From Lepisosteus oculatus (lineage: Eukaryota; Chordata; Actinopteri; Semionotiformes; Lepisosteidae): a stretch of 64,000 nt of DNA. Made by a program: the position numbers and the translations under genes. The DNA lies in the NCBI RefSeq assembly GCF_040954835.1, contig NC_090709.1, forward strand, positions 43,222,490-43,286,489, written 5' to 3'. Positions 31,833-51,691 of the stretch are shown here, piece after piece. The notes beneath the pieces are model-generated. The model saw nothing but the letters and a program-made list of their open reading frames with translations, did not search any database and had not been told where the DNA came from. Within the stretch, counting starts at the first letter, position 1, and the number at the start of each line of letters is the position of its first letter.

Positions 31833-32857
31833 TTAACAGGACTCCTCCTGCTGGGATCCACCAGACTGGGGCTGGGCTGGAGACTGGGGGAACTGTGGTG
31901 TTACCAGAGGGTCTGCAGGCCCTGGGTCATCTGGGCGATTTCCAGCAGCTCCGTCTCCCAGCAGCTCCACATCAGGCCCAGGGGAACTCCGAGGCGATGG
32001 CCCTGCTCTGCTGGAGCCGTTAGCGCAGAAGGTTCTGAGACGCTGACCTAACCACAGGTGTCTGACCAGCCCAAATATAACCCCAGCAGCCACGAGCACA
32101 ACCAGGATACCGACAATCACAGGAGCCAGCTAAGTGACTTGGGGAGCCACCCAAGTGGAGTCAGAGTCTGGAAAACATCCAATAAACCTTAACAACCGAC
32201 TTCATGCAACAGACAGATTTAAGGACCAGGACGAGCATGTTTAACTACAGACAGCTGAGTAATTCAGAAACAGGACGGCGTTAACACATGCTCTGTCACA
32301 GCCTATTCTACAGCCTATTCTAATGTGCTCTGTCTCCTGTCCTACCTTCCACACGGACTCTCACAGTGCTGATGATCCTGTCGGTCCTGAGGTCCAGTAC
32401 TGTGTAAGAGCCCTGATCACTGAAGGAGACTCCAGACAGCTGGAAAGTCTTGTCCTGGACGGAGACTCTGGGATTGTAGAGCTGATTTGGGGTCACTATG
32501 CTCTTCTCTACAGCACACACTAGCACAGAGACTCCAGGGCCCTCAGGAGTAAACTGAACTTTCACAGCCTCCCTGGTGTAGAGACTGATGTTCAGAGGGT
32601 GTCCATCAGTGACAGTGACATTCTCTTCATGACCTGCACACAGAAAGGAAAAACTCCCAAGAGTGAGAAGAGTCAGGGCACGTCTTGTCCCATCACCCTC
32701 TCCTGTGCAGCACTACTGTAGGTCACGTGACAACGACCTCATCTGGGTCGAGCCCCAGACTCACAATGCAGCTCTGTAACAAACCCCACAGTTCACAATG
32801 TCAGATTAATCCCTTCACCCCCCTCACTTACTCTTAACCAGATTAATTTAAGGCCTT

Positions 32858-32965
32858 ATTCTGTACACAGAGGGAGGTGGGGGTGTGGAACAAGCTGCCC
32901 AGCCCTGTGGTTGAAGCCGATACCCTGGCTTCTCTCCAGACACAGCTAGGTGAGCTTCTTGAACC
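32858..32965 (+). repeat. Family R fragment in the V-C intron of receptor A
   Basis: Carries gtggaacaagctgcccagcc and ctctccagacacagctaggt, a copy of the LINE-3'-end fragment family. It lies in the intron between 32993 and 32633, antisense to the gene. Confidence 0.8.
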
Positions 32966-33354
32966 AAGCAGCTACTTCTTACCTCTCACAGACAGACGCA
33001 CATTCCCCAGGAATTCCATGTTTCTGTCCCGATCGATGTATTTGCACTCGTAGTTTTTCTCTTGAGCGAATGTCACGCCGTGCAGAGTCAGCGAGAGGTC
33101 ACCCTGTCCGACCTTCTCTCTGGAGACTTCAGCTGTGGTCTCGAACCCGGGGCCAGGGATGACCGATCCATTGAAGAACTCCAACACAGGATCTAAATCA
33201 TTGTCTGCCACTTGACGCCATGCTGCTCTCCAGAGGTGACTGCAGTGGTATCTTTCTTACAGGGCAACCTGACAGAGTCTCCAAATTTCACCGACACTGA
33301 GACAGGATCTGAGGAGACACAGCAGATACTGAGAGACACAGAGACAACTCGACA

Positions 33355-34665
33355 CCCCCTGGAGAGAGAGAGACACAGCGACACAACTAGACACCCCCTG
33401 ACAGACACACACTGGAGAGAGAGACACAGCGACACAACTAGACACCCCCTGACAGACACACACTGGAGAGAGAGACACAGCGACACAACTGGACACCCCC
33501 TGACAGACACACACTGGAGAGAGAGACACAGCGACACAACTGGACACCCCCTGACAGACACACACTGGAGAGAGAGACACAGCGACACAACTGGACACCC
33601 CCTGACAGACACACACTGGAGAGAGAGACACAGCGACACAACTGGACACCCCCTGACAGACACACACTGGAGAGAGAGACACAGCGACACAACTGGACAC
33701 CCCCTGACAGACACACACTGGAGAGAGAGACACAGCGACACAACTGGACACCCCCTGACAGACACACACTGGAGAGAGAGACACAGCGACACAACTGGAC
33801 ACCCCCTGACAGACACACACTGGAGAGAGAGACACAGCGACACAACTAGACACCCCCTGACAGACACACACTGGAGAGAGACACAGTGACACAACTAGAC
33901 GCCCCCTGACAGACACACACTGGAGAGAGACACAGTGACACAACTAGACACCCCCTGACAGACACACACTGGAGAGAGAGACACAGCGACACAACTAGAC
34001 ACCCCCTGACAGACACACACTGGAGAGAGACACAGCGACACAACTAGACACCCCCTGACAGACACACACTGGAGAGAGACACAGCGACACAACTAGACAC
34101 CCCCTGACAGACACACACTGGAGAGAGACACAGTGACACAACTAGACACCCCCTGACAGACACACACTGGAGAGAGACACAGCGACACAACTAGACACCC
34201 CCTGACAGACACACACTGGAGAGACACAGCGACACAACTGGACGCCCCCTGACAGACACACACTGGAGAGAGAGACACAGCGACACAACTAGACGCCCCC
34301 TGACAGACACACACTGGAGAGAGAGACACAGCGACACAACTAGACACCCCCTGACAGACACACACTGGAGAGAGAGACACAGCGACACAACTAGACACCC
34401 CCTGACAGACACACAGTGGAGAGAGAGACACAGCGACACAACTAGACACCCCCTGACAGACACACACTGGAGAGAGAGACACAGCGACACAACTAGACAC
34501 CCCCTGACAGACACACACTGGAGAGAGAGACACAGCAACACAACTAGACACCCCCTGACAGACACACACTGGAGAGAGACACAGTGACACAACTGGACAC
34601 ACCCTCACACACACACACTGGAGAGAGAGAGAGACAGACACAGCGACACAGCTAGACACTTCCTG
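33355..34665 (+). repeat. Minisatellite in receptor A intron 1, 49-51-bp unit
   Basis: About 26 copies of cacagcgacacaactagaca, ccccctgacagacacacact, ggagagagaga. Early copies are 51 bp, later ones lose two bases of the GA run (49 bp). Because 51 is 17 codons, the array stays open in several frames on both strands; these ORFs are artefacts. It fills almost all the intron between the signal-peptide exon and the V exon. Confidence 0.96.
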
Positions 34666-35589
34666 GAGAGGAACAGAAAAACACAACTCTACAGCACCTA
34701 TAACTGTGTGAGATACCAGACACACCCATACCTGTGCAAGATGGGTTAAAAATCAGACATTATTTTCTAGATATGATTTCAAAGCCCTTACCGTTCAGAA
34801 CACTCCCGACCAGAAACAACAGAAATGTTATCCTCTTCATGATTAAAGATCTGCAAAACAGACAGAGATACCGTAATGACAAGAGCAGAAGTCATGACGA
34901 CAGCAGAGGTGGCCCACAGTGATATACATCTTTCGTGGAGTGGGGTATTTTATTGAGAGTGTGGGGGTGATCAGGTCATGTCAGCCCACTGTCACAGCGT
35001 TAAGGCTCCTAATTTTAGCACTAATGGCCACCGCGCAGGTCAGTGAATGGACACCTCTCGTCACAGAACATAGATGCGAAAGCAAAATGGCAGGTGTGCA
35101 AATTCTTGATCGCAGAACAAACTTGATGTCTGAAGCTCTGTCTTTGCAAAAGGTGAACCCGAGTCAAATATACCAGCGCAGGGGTAGCGCCCCTGAAGAA
35201 GGAAATGATACCATAATACAAAATACATCAATAATACTTTGTACACAAAGAAAAATACGTTGAAAGTTACAAAAATGCTTCTTAACGTTTCGTACATATT
35301 TTTAAAAAATATTCCGCATGATGCCTTATTCGGTCTTCTCTTAAGGATATTATACGTTTCAGTAAGGACTGGTGGGGGTGCTGGGGGTGTTGTCTGTGTA
35401 ACTTCATTGGAGTTTGTTATCCTTCTCGGAAGTGGGAAACTGGTAGAGTTGGGAGTCGAGGGATCCGATGAGATTCGTTATAGAAGGAACACGAGGAGGA
35501 GCTGTTGCCCAGAAACATTCCTTCACTTTTTTGATGTTGTCAGCAAAGATAAACTGCAGACAGCAAAGAGGAAAAGATCATTATCCCTG

Positions 35590-38848: not shown

Positions 38849-41800
38849 ATGGACGCAGCGCGCACCCTGCCCCTCTTCCTCTGTGAGTGACATGCTGGTG
38901 TTACCGGCTGAATCGCCAATATGTGGGAATTCTTTGACTTCGATAAAAACTAAACGCTCGGCGGACTTCGTACTGATCATGCTTATTGATAAATACAATT
39001 ATTTAGAACTGGGGCACTTCTCAGTTAAGCGCGTTCTCCGAATATCAGATCGATTGCTGATATAGTTATATCAATTACGCAAGTTAATAACATACTGTAG
39101 GTCCAATAGCCTCAGTTTGCAGTATGTAGTGTCTTTTTACATGATAGTTTTTAGTTTGATTGATGCCGCCTGTGCCTGTTGCTCACGATGATCTTTATTA
39201 TTTTTGAAAACTTGAGGTTGAAATCAATCATTTCTGTCTCTTCTTCTGTGGGGTTTTTCCGAATGAACGGTGTTGCACCCGCCAGCAGAAAGCGATTGAA
39301 ATGAGCGACATTAGCGCGTCTTCCTTACGAAGTGGTCTCGCCAGTGTGATTACAGTTTTATTATCTGTGTCTTGCAGAAGACAAAATATTTTTTTTTAAA
39401 AATTAGGAGACGGGCAAAGGCTGGTTGTGTGCCGATCAAGGCCAAGGCCAGAGAAAACAATTCAGGTCTAGGAAAGAACAGCTCAGCTTTTGTAAACTTA
39501 TCTCCCATCTGTATAATTAAGTTATTTATATTGATGATTTTGTTCATCTTTCCTCTACCGCTATTTTGATTTTCACTTGCCAAAGCGTTTTGATCTTTTT
39601 CGGATTTCTGTAATAACCAAGAACCAATTCGTTCCGAGCTTCTGAAAAGGACTGACGCGAGTTTCCTGTCTCAGGTGTCTTCCTGGCGGGGGGACTGTTC
39701 GCTGGCTCGGCCGGGGTCGTGGAGCTGCGGGTCCGAGCCGGAGACACGGTCACCCTGCCCTGCGACATCAGGCACCAGACCGAGACGCTGTGGATGATAC
39801 AGCGGCCCCTGGAGGTGCCGCTCGTCGCCGCTGTCGGTCAGGTCAGCGGCTCCCAGGTCAACGGCTCCCAGATCATCAAGGAGACTGAACGAGCGTACGA
39901 GTCTCGCCTCTCCCTCGTCCTCGAACCCTCGACCCTCTCCGTCAGCCTGACGCTCGCCAACCTGACGGAGTCCGACCGGGCGCTGTACTACTGCGCCGAG
40001 AGAGCCGGCGGGCGGCTGCGCTTCGGAAACGGGACGGAGCTCGTCTTCCCCGGTGAGCCCCAGCCACCGCCCGACACCCCGATAACCCCTCACGCACACT
40101 AACACGCGAGCAGTTCCAGTCTGTGCACCCGGTCCCCTACACAGCACAGACACCCCGGGGTCCCACTCCTTCACTGTTCAACACTGCAGTCTTGTTCGGT
40201 ACCGGTTCCGGTGTTGCCATGCTCGTACCCGACACCGGCTGCTTTCCTTTTCCACACCTGCTAAGTGCTAGGTCGTTACCCCATTTTTACTGTGCTTTAT
40301 TACAACGCTGTACAGTAAACACTTCCAAAATGTCTGTGAGAGTCGTTTCGTCCCCCACAGGATGCAGCACAAAGTTCGATTTTCAACGATACTGAGTTTT
40401 ATATCACAGATGAAAACAAGGATTCTTTTTTTAAAAAAGTTTCACGATTGATGAACCCCAGCTTTGTGACCTCACTGAAACGATGCTGATGGGAAAAAAG
40501 AACCGCACCCCTCCTCCTCCACACTCCGGCCCTCCCGTCTGCGTGGCTCAGGCTGGAGAGGACCTGATGCCCCTGCTGACCAGTCCATCGCCGCCCCTGT
40601 CCGGCCCAGGCCAGTCGGCTGTGAGGTCGAGGAGGTGGGAGCAGAGGTCACCCTGCTCTCAGGCCAGCAGCCTGGAGCCTCACTGTCCTGTCACTGATGC
40701 GGACATTGTGTCCGCCTGCAGGTTCAGCAGCAGTACCAGTGGCAGAAAACTCCTCCTTGGAAGAACCAGACCGGACAGTGGTCAGTCCCAGTCCCTGCTT
40801 GACGTGCTGGACTCTTCTGCCCTCTGTGAGTGTGGTCTGTGTCATCGTGTCCTCCGTCTGCGTTTTCTCCTGCGTTTCCCTTAGAAGAGGTAAGACTGCC
40901 CACACGGCTGTGTTTTTCTTTATTAGTGAAAACAGAAATACAGTCTGGGGAAAACCTGCTGTATGTTTGCGATACATTCAAACATGTAAACGTGGGAAGG
41001 CTAAAGAACCGAGATACTCTGACATCTTGCATTGTGCTGCTGTTACAGCGATATTGATGACGTATAATTCAGTTGGGCTCCCTAGTCTTGTATGGCTGTG
41101 AGCAGCTGGTCAGTCCGTTTAACTCAATAAGAAAAACAGGAGAAAAGGACTGAAAAACAAAAGTATCGGTTTAATTCTAACTTTAAGGGGGCAGAGATTT
41201 TCATGTCCTAAACCGGAATGTCTTATTTCTGACTTCTTTTGCATAACAATGCTTTTAGTAGTTGCATCAGAACAGCGGTACTTACTGAACATCCTACAGC
41301 TGTGTTTATACACCTCTTCTCCCTAACTAAGATAAAGAAACACGTCTTTTACGGTGCCGTAGGGTAGGGCAAAATATTTATTTCCTTTTTTTCTGGTCAC
41401 CTTTTGTGTGGGAAGACATCATTTTTTTAACTCTGGTTCTCCGCACAGTAGGTTCTCAGGGTACTAAGTAATGTGTTGTGATAAACGTAGTACAGTCATT
41501 GTCATTTCTGGGGGTCACAGCGGAGTATAACTGTGTTTCCTCTTTGAAACCAGGCAGTAGAAGCTCTGAGAGTTGCCCCCAGACTGGAGGACACAGCGAG
41601 AGACAGGACAGTCAGGTACCGATCCGATTTTTATTTCAGACAGGACACTGTGTCTCATCACCTGGAGTGTCTGCCTCTGTCTGTGATATAACACATTCTC
41701 AGATCATATCTCGTTTCAACAGACACAACTTAAAGACCATGAGTGAATGTGTGTGATCCAGTTGTTTTTAGTAATTATTGTATTTGTGAAGATATGGCAA

Positions 41801-41901
41801 TTTTTATGGGCCGCTAAGTGTTTTTCTGCAGTTTTGATTTTGACTGAAACAATTTGGCCAGTCTTATCAGCGTGTGTCAGGAGGGTCACAGATGAAATTT
41901 G

Positions 41902-41942
<41 letters not shown>

Positions 41943-44900
41943 CAGACTCATCGTCACCAGCAGCTGTGCTGTGTGTCTGTGTGTTTGCAGGAGGAGGAGG
42001 CAGGACTGCAGTACGCCACTATAGAGATCAGCAGGCAAAACACGAAGCACAAGAAGAGAGGTGTACAATACACAACACACTACCAGCCTCAGGACAGCAC
42101 TGCTAGAGCTCCACAACCCAGACTCAACCACATCACAGCACAGATCAAACAGCAATATCTCACACACTGGGACACACACACACAAACACAACATAAACTG
42201 GAATGCTACAGAACCCTCAACAGACAATACACACTAGCTGAATATCTAACCAAGCTAAATAACAGCAAAGAGAAACAGACCCTGACGAAGTACAGGGTCA
42301 GTGACCACAGCCTGGACACACACACTGGACACAGGCAGACCTGACTGTCCAGAGAGGACAGGCTCAGTGACCACAGTCTGGACACAGACACTGGACACAG
42401 GCAGACCTGACTGTCCAGAGAGGACAGGCTGTGCTCCCACTGCCAGCGGGGAGAAATAGAGACAGAGGTGCACTTCCTACTGCACTGTGACAGATACTCT
42501 GGGATTAGAGAAACATTCTTCCCTAAATTCAGAAATCTAGTCCCAGAGTTCCCACACCTGCCAGAATCCCAACGGGTCCCAATCCTACTGGGAGAGGGAG
42601 GAGGGAACTCAGCTGAACTGGCAGCCCAGTGTGTGATCTCCTGTCCCAGCCTGAGGAACAGACAGTGAGCCTGTCTCTCAATAATAATAATAATACAGTG
42701 TGTGATCTCCTGTCCCAGCCTGAGGAACAGACAGTGAGCCTGTCTCCGAATAAAAACAATACAGTGTGTGATCTCCTGTCCCAGCCTGAGGAACAGTGAA
42801 TCTGTCTCTCAATAATGCTCCATAAATCTATATGTAAATATTTTAGAATTGTGTCTTTATTGTAAATGTCTGTAGATTTTTGTTTTATGTAAATTGTATT
42901 TGTTTTACTTTGGCAACATTGGTTGTACTCATCGGTCATGCCAATAAAGCACCTCGAATTGAACTGAATACAGGGCACAGCTGGCCTGATGGGTAGTTAG
43001 TAGTTAATCCATCCAAGTGTCAGCTGGAGATGAGAAAATCACAGTTTGAAGATTCTCATTCTTAAAAGAAATAAGGGTATCGGCTTCAACCACAGGGCTG
43101 GGCAGCTTGTTCCCCACCCCCACCCCCCTCTGTGTACAGAAGAGCCTCCTGTTCCCAGTTCTAAATGCCCTTCAATGTAGATTTCCCTTGTCTCCTCTGG
43201 CTCATGTTTCTCTATTCATTCTACCAGAGATTCAGTTTCTTCAGCCCGTCAGTGTGTTTTCTGGAGCTTAAGGGAAGCATCTGGTTGTTCTTGCCTGGGC
43301 TGATGCCAGAGCAGCGATATCTTTTCTACGCAGAAGGATATGCATTAGATGTATGGATAAAAAGGGGAGATGAAAAATATAGATCTGTGCAACATTTTCT
43401 TTATAACGGGGGGACCATAACTGCACGTAGTATTTCACTGTGTAAAGAAACGACTCCTAGGCCCCAGTTTTAAAGATTCTTCTCCAGAATGACCCTTGTG
43501 AGGTGGAGAGGAGCTGCAGAATTATTTGGATCACCTTTGCCGATACCCATTTAGTATAGTATACCTAAATATAAGAATAAATCTTTTCAGTAAACATCTA
43601 CGTTGTTCACCTGCCTGTTAGGACTAACACCACACACACACACAGCGGTTCATCCGGACCGGGTCGGCCTGACGAGATTCAGGCCCAGAGCCGGTGGTCA
43701 CTGCCTCCCCCTGCTGGCCGGACGTGGTAGCGCCGCTTCACCGCACTGAAGAAACCGAGAACGGAAGGAGAATTTCCAAGCTGTCTGGAGCGCCTGAACT
43801 CAGAAGCGTCATGCAGCCTCTCTGCGTGCGAACAAGAGCTCAGGAGATTCACCTCCTTTCAGCGTGCGGGGGGCCCCGACTGATGAATCAACCAGTTGGC
43901 CAGCGGCCACATCACCCTGCAGCTCCCCACTGGCAGCCCCACTGGAGCCCAGCAGGGGGAGCCTGGCCAGTACCTGGAGGGGAGACTCCTGGGAGAGCCG
44001 AGGCTGCTGCTGGGAGAGGTGTTAGTGGGGCCAGCAGGGGGCGCTCTCACCCTGCGGTCTGTGTGGGTCCTGATGCCCCAGTATAGTGACGGGGGACACT
44101 GGACTGTAAACAGGCGCCGTCCTTCGGATGAGACGTCAAACCGAGGTCCTGACTCTCTGTGGTCATTAACAATCCCGGGGTGTCTCTGGAGAAGAGTAGG
44201 GGTGTTACCCCAGTGCCCTGGCCTAATACCCCCCCTGGTCTTTACCCATCATGGCCTCCTAATCACCCCCCTCTCTGAACTGGCTCCATCCCAGTGGATC
44301 TCCATCCACTGGATCCCAGCTCCATCATCCAGGTGGGGCTGCACACTGGTGGTGGAGGGGATCCCCATTACCTGTATTAGTGTAAGACATTATCATTATT
44401 ATCCCTCTGCTCTCCTCCCCACTGAGAGCTGCTGTGTGGGGGGAGAGGAGTGGAGCATCATCCAGGTGGGGTACACACTGGGGGGGTGGGGGGTGGAGGG
44501 GAACCCCATTACTGTAAAGCGCTTTGAGTGGAGTGTCCAGAAAAGCGCTCTAGAAGTGTAAGACATTATCATTATTGTATATCGCCGTCGCTAGTCTCCT
44601 CCTACGACATAGTGATATTAAAAACAGAACAACAGCGCCACCTGCTGGATTCCTAGTGTACTGCTACACCCGAACCGCCGAATAGGTCTTCCCTGTAGTT
44701 CTTGAATCCAAGTCAGAGCACAGGCGTCGCACATGAGCTACTGGTCCCCTGCAGCGTGACCCGTCCTGAAGCCTCTTCTGCAGTTTTCATTCCACACCTC
44801 AATATGAGGGCTCTGTCTTTTTTTTTTTAAAGGAACACATCTCACAACCAGAGGAATAAAGGGTCCTTCCATTTTTTTTCTTCAATTACAGGAAAGCGGA

Positions 44901-44978
44901 GAAGAGCTGAAATATTCGGAAATCCAGCTCCCATCTGGATCACGGAACGGCCACTTTCTGTTGCTTTGTGACACCTGA
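38849..44978 (+). CDS. Receptor B: NITR-like inhibitory receptor with two alternative ITIM tail exons
   Basis: Exons inferred from splice consensus and phase: 38849-38882 (signal, MDAARTLPLFL), 39675-40052 (rest of leader plus V domain), 40722-40889 (stalk and TM), 41554-41615 (short cytoplasmic), then either 41991-42344 or 44892-44978. The first three junctions are phase 1; the one into the tail is phase 0. The V domain has the B-strand cysteine (VTLPC), tryptophan in LWMIQRP and YYCAERA. It ends with a J-like FGNGTELVF in the same exon, the hallmark of novel immune-type receptors. The TM (SVSVVCVIVSSVCVFSC) has no charged residue. Both tails carry an ITIM-like motif: LQYATI in the first, LKYSEI in the second. 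Predicted lengths are 331 and 242 residues. ITIMs recruit SH2 phosphatases, so an inhibitory surface receptor on immune cells is expected. There is one V domain and no membrane-proximal Ig domain. Confidence 0.82.
41905..41941 (+). repeat. (GT)n microsatellite
   Basis: About 18 GT units ending about 50 bp before the acceptor of the tail exon at 41991. A long GT tract this close to an acceptor can affect splicing and is likely length-polymorphic. Confidence 0.95.
42065..42965 (+). mobile_element. LINE 3' end overlapping receptor B's upstream tail exon
   Basis: From somewhere near 42065-42110 the reading frame becomes that of a fish LINE-type C-terminal region (KLECYRTLNRQYTLAEYL, TKYRVSDHSL). 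After the stop at 42342-42344 comparable coding sequence continues in shifted frames: a cysteine/histidine piece at 42430-42490, then FFPKFRNLVPEFPHLPESQR. Two tandem copies of about 80 bp lie at 42270-42430, and three copies of a gtgtgatctcctgtcccagc block at 42630-42800. The element ends in tgccaataaagcacctcgaa, giving AATAAA at about 42943-42948. The left boundary is uncertain. Confidence 0.7.
43072..43165 (-). repeat. Family R fragment
   Basis: Reverse-strand copy (ggcttcaaccacagggctgg, cagcttgttccccaccccca) of the dispersed LINE-3'-end fragment, inside receptor B's last intron. Confidence 0.75.
43905..44575 (+). mobile_element. 5S-rRNA-derived SINE, long copy with duplicated 3' part
   Basis: The head covers more of 5S rRNA than the copy at 2675 (cggccacatcaccctgcagc, then gagcctggccagtacctgga). 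The body matches the same family. The 3' end appears twice: a first terminus near 44375-44402 (gtgtaagacattatcattat), then a second block ending at about 44575 with taaagcgctttgagtggagt and the same tail. Lies between receptor B's two candidate tail exons. Confidence 0.85.
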
Positions 44979-46690
44979 CGGACACCCCAGTTTCCCAGTG
45001 ATGATCCCCAGAACCCACTCCGCCCAGGAGGCGAGCTGAAGCGAGTTCAGCTCAGCAGACAAGAACAGCAGACTCAGAGGACGATCTAACAATTCACGTT
45101 TTATTGTGTTTCTTTAGTGCAAGTGTAGCGCTACAGCTCAGAAAATGACTTTTGACAAGTGTAAATGTATCTTTGTACCCTGCAGCGATTCCTCCAAAGA
45201 GAAATGTTGGCCATTTTCAGAGTCTTTATAGCTTAACGGCGGGAACTGTTTTTCCTTATTCTCACCGTGGGATTAAAATGTACTTGTTCCTTTAGAAACG
45301 AAACATTCCAGTATCTATTATAAGAAAATCCAAAGACTGCAAAAAGAATCAACAACAAGAGAAACTACGACTCAACGCAAAGTGATATCGTACAAAAATG
45401 CCTACAGTCAGCAAGTAAATGAGGTAGGAGAAACAATTTTTGGCACAAGAATCTTAAATGCTAGACCATAAAATAATTATTCCTTAGAATGTCCGGACTG
45501 TTAAAAGACAAAACAAAAAGGACACTGATTATACATTCACACATAAAAACCGTTTAAGTGCATAACTGAAAAACTGAATGCCAACAGGAAATTTCTTAAA
45601 GTAACACGTTCCTTTCTGTGCTAATTCTGAGACACAGGCAGTGTCCATCAGTACTGTCCAACCCTACCTCAAACAAAACCGTCTCATTCAATTCCAAAGG
45701 GGAGTTAAAATGAATTTGCCCCCCTCCCACTTCCTCCGGAAGTGTCACTCCAGGGAAGCGTCGTTAATACTGAGAAGAGGAGGAACGTCTTTACACAGAG
45801 GGTGGTGGGAGTGTGGAACAAGCTACCAGCTTCTCTCCAGAGCTGGAGAAGACCCTCAGATCAATTCACTACCCTCTACCAAATAAGTCAGAATTATTTG
45901 GACTAAATGGCTCCTCGTTTGTAAGTAGAGATGAACAAAATCGCAAACATTAAAATCATGACATGACTGTTTCGTGGAAGAACAGACCTACTGTTCAATG
46001 AAGACATTAATAAATAATTAAAAGGTAACTGCTGTAGCTATCTATAACTGTTCTTAAATACCTTCACACTTCATTTCAAAGACATGCTATTTTAAACATT
46101 TACCAAATGTTCCATTAAATAAATACGGATATGACTTCTTGTTAAACATCTCAGGTGCTGACAAAAACAAACTAAAAAAACTTCACCGCGGTACCGGAGA
46201 GAAAATCGCTTTACCTTTTCTTTAATGGGGGTCCCGTTCAACCGCTGCGCAAGACGGGGAAGCAAGCTCAAGATTTTTTTTAATGAAAAAAAAACACTAC
46301 AATTAACTAAAACCTCCCCCACTTCTTGGACGGAAAACGTGTGAAGTGATATCAAGATATCAAGCTGCGCCGCTTGTCAACACTGAGTCTGCAGACGTCC
46401 TCTTCCGGAACAGGCAACTGACCAATGAGCTTCGAGTAGCTGGTCAGGTGATGCAGGGAGCCCCCCCAGAGGATTCTGGGGAATGTAGTCCGACATTCTA
46501 GGGAATGTAGGTTGTGCTCTCGCGATGTCCCTAGGATCTAATGTGAGAAACAAGACCACACTGAGTCAATTGGGGGTGATCTGACCAAATACATTTTGCA
46601 GGCCACTGAGCAGAAACGTATTATGTTGGGGTTGTTATTCACATCGATCTCATGGTCACCACCAGAACTCCTTGAGTGTAAACCAAAAGC
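44979..46690. other. Downstream of receptor B, no gene recognised
   Basis: Mostly AT-rich. No clear AATAAA follows the 44978 stop within 300 bp (the nearest variant is gattaaaatg near 45270). One family R fragment (45775-45915) is present. Confidence 0.5.
45775..45915 (+). repeat. Family R fragment, diverged copy
   Basis: acacagagggtggtgggagt, gtggaacaagctaccagctt and ctctccagagctggagaaga are diverged forms of the family R block. Confidence 0.65.
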
Positions 46691-48293: not shown

Positions 48294-51200
48294 ATGGACG
48301 CGCCGGCGGCGGCGAGAATCGCGCTGGTCTTCCTCACCCGTGAGTAGGCTAGCGTCCCCGTCAAATGCGCCTCTTCGGGGTTCATGCACGGCCAGACCGG
48401 ACCGGACCGGAGCGACGTTGCGCGCAAAAACGTGCGGCGCTCAAGCCGCTTGGCGGGCCGCGCTGGGGTCGAGGGCGCTGCTTTGGATTTGCTGTGCGGC
48501 GGAAGCGATTCAGATGAGCAAAATCGTGTTTTTTTCTGTTCTCTTCTTGATAAGCGGGGCATCCTCGCTCCTGAAACAGCAACGGAGCGTGAAACGTGTT
48601 TCCCTCTTAGTTCTGGGTACCAGTCCGAACCGGTACTTCATAAGGCCAGCAGTCTGAAATAAACCGCACCAATGAGCTTCGGTCCTCTGTAACTGTCCTG
48701 TTAGCGAGCAGTGTACCCGGACGGATCTGAAATCAGCCCGCCAGCCCCGTCCTGCCGGTGTCTGAGAAGGACTGACGCGAGTTTCCTGTCTCAGATGTCT
48801 GCATGACGCGGGGGCTCGGGGCCGAACCGGCCGCGGTCGTGGAGCTGCGGGTCCGAGCCGGAGACACGGTCACCCTGCCCTGCGGCATCAGGCACCTGAA
48901 GGAGACGCTGTGGATGATACAGCGGCCCCTGGAGATGCCGCTCATCGCCGCCGTCGCCCAGGTCAGCGGCTCCCAGGTCAACAAGGAGGTGGAAGAGGGG
49001 TACCGGTCTCGCCTCTCCCTCGTCCTCGAACCCTCGACCCTCTCCGTCAGCCTGACGCTCGCCAAACTGACGGAGTCCGACCGGGCGCTGTACTACTGCG
49101 CCGACAGAGCCGGCGGGCGGCTGAGCTTCGGAAACGGGACGGAGCTCGTCTTCCCCGGTGAGCCCCAGCCACCGCCCCTCAGCGCGGATCGCTCTGTCCT
49201 CAGCTCTCTGATCCGTTTTGCGGGCAAGAATACAATCGTTCATCTGCCGTCAGCCCTCCGGGAGAGCAGCACGTTGTGCTGAGGTCGGGTTTATGCAGTA
49301 GATTTACAGTTCCCCCCTAATTTCAACGACCAACCCCACCTTTTCTTTACCGTGCAGTGTCCTGGGCTCCTGTCAGCGTGAGATACATAGAAGGACATTT
49401 AAAACTGAGAACTGGAGGCTCTTCTGTACACAGAGGGGGGCGGGGGTGGGGAACAGGCTGCCCAGCCCTGTGGTTGAAGCCAATACCCTGGCTCCTCTCC
49501 AGACACAGCTGGGTGAGCTCCTCCAGTCAGGACAGGGGGCTCTTCTGTACACAGAGGGGGGTGGGGGTGGGGAACAAGCTGCCCAGCAGTGTGGTTGAAG
49601 CCGATACCCTGGCTTCTCTCCAGACACAGCTGGGTGAGCTCCTCCAGTCAGGACAGGAGGCTCTTCTGTACACAGAGGGTGGTGGGGGTGGGGAACAAGC
49701 TGCCCAGCCCTGTGGTTGAAGCCAATACTCTGGCACAATGGGGTTTCATTAGAGAGGTTCCCAGTCTGGGGCTCGGTGAGGTGACCCAGACACGGTCCCG
49801 GTCCCCTGAGGGCTGTTTCCTTGTCTGTGGCAGGAGGAGGCCCGGAGCGTTCCCCACCCGTTCACCTCCAGCTGTCCTGCCTGCTCGTCCTGCTGTCGGC
49901 TCTGCCTCTGAGCGCCCTGGTGTCCTCTTGCTGCGCCTACTGCCTGTTCGCGAGAGACGGTACGGCCGCTCGGCCCTGCTGGACAGGACCGTGTCCAGCT
50001 CCGTGCACTGTGAATCACGACGGGACCTCTCGCACCAGGAACAGGGATCCTACCTGTGAGAGCTGGTGTTCGCTCTGCCAGCTGCTGTGTCCTGGTCTTC
50101 CTAACCTCCTGCTGCAACGTCTCCCTACAGCTCCTGAGCTGTGTGTCGCCTGTCGGAAGAGATCGAGGGCAAGACGTCAGCCCAGCATTCTGGTAATTCA
50201 GACGTTACACTTTCTAGATCACAAGACGGCAACAGAACGAATCGCAAAATCTAAAGGGCAGCCGTGCTGGGGCTCTGGGTTCAATGATGGACCTGGGGTG
50301 CTGTCTGTGTGGAGTCTGCATGTTCCCTTCATGTTGGTGTGAGTGTCCTCCAGGAGCTCCAGTTTCCTCCCACAGTCCAGAGACAGGCTGGAGGGCTCAT
50401 GGTAGGAAAACCATGAGCCCTCTAGTGTGTGTGTGTGTGTGCCCTGTGATGGACTGGTGTCCTGTCCAGGGTGTGTGAGTGTGTGTGTGTCCTGTGATGG
50501 ACTGGTGTCCTGTCCAGGGTGTGTGTCTGTGTGTCCTATGATGGACTGGTGTCCTGTCCAGGGTGTGTGAGTGTCTGTGTCCTGTGATGGACTGGTGTCC
50601 CGTCCAGGGTGTGTGAGTGTGTGTGTGTGTCCTGTGATGGACTGGTGTCCTGTCCAGGGTGTGTGAGTGTGTGTGTGTGTCCTGTGATGGACTGCTGTCC
50701 TGTCCAGGGTGTGTGAGTGTGTGTGTGTGTCCTGTGATGGACTGCTGTCCTGTCCAGGGTGTGTGAGTGTGTGTGTGTGTCCTGTGATGGACTGGTGTCC
50801 TGTCCAGGGTGTGTGTGTGAGTGTGTGTGTGTCCTGTGATGGACTGGTGTCCTGTCCAGGGTGTGTGAGTGTGTGTGTCCTGTGATGGACTGCTGTCCTG
50901 TCCAGGGTGTGTGAGTGTGTGTGTGTGTCCTGTGATGGACTGCTGTCCTGTCCAGGGTGTGTGAGTGTGTGTGTGTGTCCTGTGATGGACTGCTGTCCTG
51001 TCCAGGGTGTGTGAGTGTGTGTGTGTGTCCTGTGATGGACTGGTGTCCTGTCCAGGGTGTGTGAGTGTGTGTGTGTGTCCTGTGATGGACTGCTGTCCTG
51101 TCCAGGGTGTGTGTGTGAGTGTGTGTGTGTCCTGTGATTGACTGCTGTCCTGTCCAGGGTGTGTGAGTGTGTGTGTCCTGTGATGGACTGCTGTCCTGTC

Positions 51201-51691
51201 CAGGGTGTGTGAGTGTGTGTGTGTGTCTTGTGATGGACTGCTGTCCTGTCCAGGGTGTGTGAGTGTGTCCTGTGATGGACTGGTGTCCTGTCCAGGGTGT
51301 GTGAGTGTGTGTGTGTCCTTTGATGGACTGCTGTCCTGTCCAGGGTGTGTGAGTGTGTGTGTTTGTCCTGTGATGGACTGCTGTCCTGTCCAGGGTGTGT
51401 GAGTGTGTGTGTCCTGTGATGGACTGGTGTCCTGTCCAGGGTGTGTGAGTGTGTGTGTCCTGTGATGGACTGCTGTCCTGTCCAGGGTGTGTGAACATGA
51501 CACCAGCAGGGGGAGCTCAGGACAGGCTGCAGAGGGGCTGAGCTGATCTGGCTTCTCACTCCTGGTTTCCCTGTGGTCTCGCCCCCCTGCAGGCGGCGCC
51601 AGGCGATCAGACGCAGTACGAAAACGTCGAGGAGACCGTTCCCCCGGCCGCCCCCAGGAACAGAGACGTCCGCAGGACGAGGCCCGTCTAG
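48294..51691 (+). CDS. Receptor C: NITR-like receptor with ITSM-like tail
   Basis: Exons: 48294-48339 (signal, MDAPAAARIALVFLT), 48795-49157 (leader end and V domain), 49834-49959 (stalk and TM), 50131-50192 (short basic cytoplasmic exon), 51593-51691 (tail). All have GT/AG ends and phases 1,1,1,0, identical to receptor B; the product is 231 residues. The V domain is very close to B's (VTLPC, LWMIQRP, YYCADRA, J-like FGNGTELVF). It has a shorter loop in the middle, where B reads SQVNGSQIIKE and C reads SQVNKEVE. The TM is LSCLLVLLSALPLSALVSSCC, uncharged. The tail contains TQYENV, which fits the ITSM consensus TxYxxV/I, and no ITIM. Intron 4 is filled by a V-SINE-derived minisatellite. B and C are tandem duplicates; the exon sequences are far better conserved than their flanks. 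Confidence 0.85.
49378..49740 (+). repeat. Family R fragment, three tandem copies
   Basis: About 120-bp units, each with cttctgtacacagagggggg, ggggaacaagctgcccagc and tggttgaagccgataccctg, at about 49410-49535, 49535-49660 and 49660-49740. The tandem arrangement in receptor C's intron 2 keeps a frame open for 120 codons, which I consider an artefact. Confidence 0.85.
50265..50440 (+). mobile_element. V-SINE-like element
   Basis: Contains the conserved central domain of vertebrate V-SINEs: ggtgctgtctgtgtggagtc, tgcatgttcccttcatgttg and agtttcctcccacagtccag. The tail block tgatggactggtgtcctgtc leads straight into the following minisatellite. Located in receptor C's last intron. Confidence 0.7.
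50440..51495 (+). repeat. Minisatellite derived from the SINE tail, 38-50-bp unit
   Basis: About 23 units of cctgtgatggactgctgtcc, tgtccagggtgtgtgagtgt plus a variable GT run; the GT run explains the length variation. Each unit contains the tgatggactggtgtcctgtc block of the V-SINE immediately upstream, so the array appears to be an expanded SINE tail. The long minus-strand frames here (up to 611 codons) are artefacts of repetition. Confidence 0.93.

Follow-up and report, generated by a model that had tools for sequence, protein, structure and literature searches.

The window, i.e., the whole stretch of 64,000 nucleotides analyzed here (C14:43222490-43286489), probably contains a fish inhibitory-type Ig receptor gene whose tail exon was fused to a LINE by a genomic deletion. 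The parent form of the tail, the fused form, and a sister copy that has the element close by were all found in one genome (1.2 Gb and 813 contigs searched), and the tail change is thereby well bracketed. Here, retroelement coding sequence would have become receptor coding sequence through a deletion rather than an insertion. An earlier note on this DNA had recognized the core of the fusion, a LINE in the tail frame, and this part stands. It was overlooked there that a conserved ITSM-type motif had been lost, along with the native stop and the stretch that has the native AATAAA, and that the join arose by a deletion in a copy whose LINE already lay 1.4 kb away.

Exon structure of the receptor gene and its fused tail

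The predicted coding sequence consists of five exons (Table 1) that are joined in frame, comprise 996 bases, and encode 331 residues. The order in the predicted protein is V domain, transmembrane segment, one ITIM, and a 93-residue LINE-derived end. The leader, V, transmembrane, and short cytoplasmic exons are all open and have GT/AG sites.

Table 1. Positions of the receptor gene features within the window.
Feature	Positions	Strand	Remarks
Leader exon MDAARTLPLFLC, phase 1, donor GTGAGT	38849..38882	+	Homologous leaders in A3, A5, A1
Ig V-set exon, J-like end FGNGTELVF	39675..40052	+	Pfam V-set E 1.5e-9; AG/GT sites
Transmembrane exon, hydrophobic segment uncharged	40722..40889	+	LLPSVSVVCVIVSSVCVFSCV, mean hydropathy 2.4
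Short cytoplasmic exon GSRSSESCPQTGGHSERQDSQ	41554..41615	+	AG and GT sites in 9/9 paralogues
Native part of the tail exon, EEEAGLQYATIEISRQNTKHKKRG, ITIM LQYATI	41991..42062	+	Identical protein in 6/8 other protein-search loci
Deletion junction between tail exon and LINE, few shared bases (ACAA)	42063..42069	+
LINE ORF2 C-terminal sequence in the tail frame, 93 residues (first = junction), with TGA 42342-42344	42063..42344	+
Possible weak donor GTCAGT, from a window-only C-to-G change, in phase with 44892	42297..42302	+
Remaining LINE 3' end, predicted 3' untranslated region; AATAAA at 42749 and 42943	42345..42960	+
Alternative tail exon ESGEELKYSEIQLPSGSRNGHFLLLCDT, ITIM LKYSEI, phase 0 from 41615	44892..44978	+	Present at the window, A1, A7

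The leader exon, absent from the finding of the earlier note, was located through a conserved block upstream of two paralogous copies, herein referred to as A3 and A5, and then at the matching place in the window and in the copy A1. The homologous leaders read MDTVRTTYKPLFLC in A3, MDTVRTTYNPLFLC in A5, and MDAARTLLLFLC in A1. A lost leader exon, suspected after scans that yielded no convincing leader, was ruled out by the exon at 38849-38882.

The search with the V domain resulted in 53 matches; 20 of these were close (81-100% identity), all located on C14 and two of them in the window. The top matches in the comparison with solved structures were all antibody-type V domains, which does not by itself name the family. 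A 5-residue insertion near VNGSQ, by eye a short tandem duplication, was observed in the V domain (39675-40052); neither the six other B-type V exons read nor the window's second V exon has it. By our own placement, it sits where CDR2 is expected. The hydrophobic transmembrane segment is nearly identical in 9/9 paralogues. The 5' part of the transmembrane exon varies among the copies: at the projected start, AG is present in A1 alone and a stop in A3 and A4, the true start being mapped in none of the eight paralogues besides A1. The short cytoplasmic exon is 12 bases shorter in A3 and A4.

The tail exon starts at 41991, directly after the acceptor AG (41989-41990), with the codons GAG GAG GAG GCA GGA CTG CAG TAC GCC ACT ATA. 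Its frame, EEEAGLQYATI...KLECYRTLNRQYTLAEYL...GHRQT, is open up to the TGA at 42342-42344 and gives a product of 117 residues, 24 of them native and 93 from the junction onward. The claim that the LQYATI exon continues in frame into the C-terminal part of ORF2 was thus confirmed, and the start of the LINE frame, previously set within about 40 codons, is after 24 codons (codon 25, 42063). The stop was said to stand where related elements have Trp after RQT, and TGG was indeed found there in L006 and in the first unit of L002. The exon had also been called an upstream tail exon; the tail exon is real, but in all nine other copies read it is the last exon and has a stop of its own.

The splice between 41615 and 41991, with the donor GTACCG directly 3' of 41615, is supported by conservation in the paralogues, because the 41615 donor is present in 9/9 of them and the 41991 acceptor AG in 8/9, the remaining copy being A6 with an unmapped exon start. 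Two further donors at the end of the native part were considered and rejected. GT 42061 also occurs in the paralogues, where it is part of the codons read through to the native stop; GT 42063 is not shared with them (GG in 9/9). These sites scored -0.6 and -6.8, respectively, versus 0.0 to 6.0 for the four donors of the gene, by a simple donor matrix that puts GT 42061 only narrowly below the gene's donors.

The sequence after 42063 is repeat DNA, with 134 matching pieces among 40 scored of 3,658 candidates. The fused frame belongs to a 1,177-codon open frame found in 20 of the 150 scored LINE copies; because so many copies are open, the LINE family seems to be young. RVT_1 (E 1.1e-41) is the sole Pfam match of a 733-codon piece of one open copy, and the best solved chains for this piece include LINE-1 ORF2. 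The piece starts at VLLCGDLNARTG, read by us as the end of an apurinic-type endonuclease domain, which in APE-type non-LTR retrotransposons is N-terminal. Neither an ITIM nor an ITSM was found in the LINE-derived part of the tail, where the single YxxL is YRTL, and the fused tail had no significant match in Pfam (one chance-level match, E 0.22). The AATAAA claimed at about 42943 in the LINE end is present together with a second one at 42749; these are the first two AATAAA 3' of the window stop, and both are inside the LINE. Of the proposal that a retroelement gives part of the tail and the polyadenylation site, the DNA bears out the tail frame and the first downstream AATAAA, both in a gene that is otherwise intact.

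Native tail of the paralogues and predicted forms of the receptor

Nine tail exon loci were found by the protein search and one more, C14:45617383, by the DNA search, which makes the window and nine others. The DNA search gave 14 rows: ten correspond to the window and the nine loci read, three are short fragments, and one (C14:56859490) was dropped as containing intron only. All nine other tail exons run natively to their own stop, typically as KKRGGYNTQPTTYAEIKHG. Past the KKRG region, the paralogues typically read GGYNTQPTTYAEIKHG; in A1, A3, A6, and A9, the stop is preceded by RRV. Among the window and nine loci, only the window copy reads KKRG-VQYTTHYQPQDS.

The native tail contains an ITIM, kept as LQYATI or LEYATI in 8/9 paralogues, followed by an ITSM-type motif. 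The usual ITSM pattern is TxYxx(V/I). The second motif is TTYAEI in seven paralogues, TVYAEI in A6, and RTYAEI in A2; thus, TxYxxI is matched by 8/9 paralogue tails, the exception being A2. The native AATAAA is located 533-538 bases from the exon start in 7/8 paralogues scanned (the scan covered all but A6), with none there in A1; the first AATAAA of the window copy is 758 bases from the exon start. At the level of DNA, this comparison shows an ancestral tail with an ITIM, an ITSM-type motif, and its own stop, and a window copy in which the second motif and the native stop are gone, together with the stretch of the native AATAAA.

As a separate observation, A6 (C14:45613694-45618200; L015, L033) has lost the first ITIM (GETTIEIS) and kept TVYAEI, being a mirror image of the window copy.

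In the preferred reading, the gene would be transcribed, spliced like its paralogues, and polyadenylated at the LINE AATAAA at 42749 or 42943. The mRNA should escape nonsense-mediated decay because the stop is in the last exon. The product would be a membrane receptor with the V domain of the family and with weaker or different inhibitory signaling, because one ITIM remains and the ITSM-type motif is gone. ITSM-type motifs are docking sites for SH2 proteins, e.g., SHP-2 or SAP-type adaptors. The LINE-derived part, having neither ITIM nor ITSM, is probably a spacer. By analogy with KIR3DL3 (PMC6360152), weaker inhibition or dependence on clustering is expected if the gene is expressed. Such a receptor would be a natural test of ITSM-type motif loss with the membrane and ITIM parts unchanged.

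Two rivals of this reading are serious, namely a dying copy and the use of the 44892 exon. According to the first, the copy is dying or unexpressed, the fused exon is a scar in the genome, and its open frame is a leftover without meaning. This rival accepts the deletion too, and its probability, although on the unlikely side, overlaps that of the best explanation. Tails in the family do decay, as the lost ITIM of A6 demonstrates, and the LINE part is without measurable constraint. The region 42063-42287 was compared base by base with nine LINE copies, one of them partial; away from the junction, the only window-specific changes are at 42110 and 42218, both in the third position and silent, and at 42081, beside the junction, the window differs from most LINE copies. 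These changes are too few to show constraint or its lack.

Against a dying copy stand the five open exons linked by GT/AG sites and the comparison with A1 (C14:40485 kb), which is the sister of the window copy in the tree of ten loci (support 100/100). Versus A1, the transmembrane stretch tested has one silent and no replacement change in 35 codons, and the tail stretch has no changes in 24. Other differences from A1 weigh against the preferred reading. The short cytoplasmic exon has one replacement, Cys for Arg. In the V exon, about 7.8 silent and 15.2 replacement changes were counted over 121 codons, a divergence above what the introns (97.7-98.9% identical) lead one to expect; this exon therefore has a history of its own, and parts of it may have come by conversion. 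If the gene is unexpressed, the fusion is still an instructive scar.

According to the second rival, the working tail is made by joining 41615 to the exon at 44892 with its one ITIM, LKYSEI, whereas the LINE-fused exon is left out or serves only in a minor terminal form. We regard this as rather doubtful. The 44892 exon may be a true alternative terminal exon, as judged from its pyrimidine-rich acceptor, right phase, ITIM, and retention at three loci, with residues alike at 28/28 positions in A7 and 27/28 in A1. However, only 3/10 loci having the tail exon also have this one, and the 41991 acceptor is unchanged. The likeness to A7 perhaps reflects recent copying rather than constraint: positions 43180-45572 of the window are 99.5% identical over 2.4 kb to C14:45410508-45412900 (A7; L028, L036), about 2.1 Mb apart, whereas A1 is only 95-98% identical to the window there. 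We read this as very recent copying or conversion between receptor loci.

Both tail exons could also be used in one transcript. At 42297, the window has G and 8/8 other LINE copies read have C; the change replaces Leu by Val and creates a GT. A donor at 42297 spliced to 44892 would make the LINE an in-frame linker and put both tail motifs in one receptor, with the tail consisting of LQYATI, 78 LINE-derived residues, and LKYSEI, i.e., two ITIMs. At the two other loci with both tail exons, the native stop separates the ITIMs. This form is highly improbable; if true, a retroelement has altered the number and spacing of motifs in an inhibitory receptor.

Origin of the exon-LINE junction

The window copy and A1 are collinear, with 95.9% identity at 39637-42083, 93-96% in the LINE, and 94.6% at 43076-44374. 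The alignment between them breaks at about 42065-42083 and resumes from 42065 (LINE) through 43152 and at 43076-44374. In A1, the same LINE is located about 1.4 kb downstream of the tail exon, and the intervening stretch is missing in the window copy. The A1 stretch absent from the window measures about 1.4 kb to the second LINE repeat unit and about 1.5 kb to the third. The distance to the LINE is similar in A2 (C14:45431 kb), whose flank matches up to 43152 and is itself partly repeated sequence.

The simplest history from these alignments is a deletion of about 1.4-1.5 kb that fused the terminal tail exon to the downstream LINE, rather than a new insertion. It would be a single event on the window branch, because the native end is present in 9/9 other copies. 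One breakpoint lies in the codon that follows KKRG and the other within the LINE; at the join, the sequence common to both sides is limited to a few bases (ACAA). By our own reckoning, landing in the ORF2 frame was about a one-in-three event, given the orientation of the LINE.

An assembly error, with two places wrongly joined, is very unlikely to have produced this deletion. Near-identical copies and short repeats form a mosaic in this region, which speaks for such an error, but the few bases shared at the join are short for a false overlap, and both flanks are diverged counterparts of those in A1, with order and orientation preserved. That the LINE was inserted directly into the tail exon, as suggested by the LINE abutting the coding sequence in the window, can practically be dismissed: A1 has the same element and the same 3' flank 1.4 kb further down (A2 similarly), and the intervening stretch is missing in the window, unless A1 and A2 gained it later.

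At A7 (C14:45409527-45410508; L028, L036), pieces of the same LINE were observed in both orientations, and one piece abuts the 43180 flank; this is another rearrangement of the element near a receptor.

Comparison with known systems and neighboring genes

The NITRs of bony fish have a V-set domain with a J or J-like end, FGXGTXLX(V/L) or part of it, and contain one or two Ig domains, the I domain with six conserved cysteines being not present in all members (PMC2442602). The window gene shares with the NITRs, as described there, the clustered arrangement in a fish, V domain, J-like motif, uncharged transmembrane segment, and ITIM tails in cytoplasmic exons (PMC2442602). Its V domain matches V-set (E 1.5e-9), FGNGTELVF is J-like by its FGXG part, and the inhibitory form is represented by the ITIM LQYATI and the hydrophobic segment without charge. 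No exon for a second Ig domain (I domain) was noticed by eye among the frames listed at 40053-40721. The gene is not filed here as a NITR.

The fused tail would also belong among retroelement-derived terminal exons, having coding sequence of element origin in frame with receptor coding sequence. One described case is CD274-L2A, a soluble PD-L1 from an intronic LINE-2A (PMC6877088). In both this form and the window gene, which belong to the immune Ig-superfamily, a LINE provides the terminal coding end and the polyadenylation site (predicted here), and the canonical 3' untranslated region is omitted (PMC6877088). CD274-L2A is formed by alternative splicing and polyadenylation, which add 18 residues and drop the transmembrane domain (PMC6877088). 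In contrast, the window gene has a genomic fusion in the assembly that adds 93 residues and leaves the membrane anchor and one ITIM in place.

LOR1a is an LTR element. IL13RA1-LOR1a is a retroelement-exonized isoform of a cytokine receptor (PMC7617988) and is similar to the predicted form of the window gene in that retroelement exonization leads to a partly signaling-defective form of an immune receptor; from this report we infer that the cytoplasmic end is what changes. IL13RA1-LOR1a is an alternative isoform alongside the canonical one, and its expression and signaling were tested in cells (PMC7617988). In the window gene, unlike this case, the native exon form is gone from the gene.

In KIR3DL3 of great apes, the second ITIM was repeatedly lost in independent events and the first kept, which was read as attenuated signaling (PMC6360152). 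The likeness is an inhibitory NK-type receptor with the first motif kept and the second lost; the difference is that the losses described in that report came through small mutations or through acquisition of an 86-base segment, and none involves a retroelement tail (PMC6360152).

Retroelement-derived ends of immune proteins are thus already known as alternative forms, going by these two accounts (PMC6877088, PMC7617988). A genomic deletion replacing an ITSM-type motif by LINE ORF2 in a fish receptor would be a new variant. No case of a retroelement-made receptor tail in fish was found in the literature searched, whose scope left out most subscription journals.

Additional receptor genes or candidates for such genes were observed in the window. 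A second receptor of the family is located at 48294-51691 and has another tail (TQYENV, ITSM-like by eye); one of its introns is filled by a long tandem repeat at about 50400-51490, also by eye. On the minus strand, a further Ig-like receptor gene is apparent by eye at about 32300-33260, and a long tandem repeat at about 33200-34750 lies beside it (by eye).
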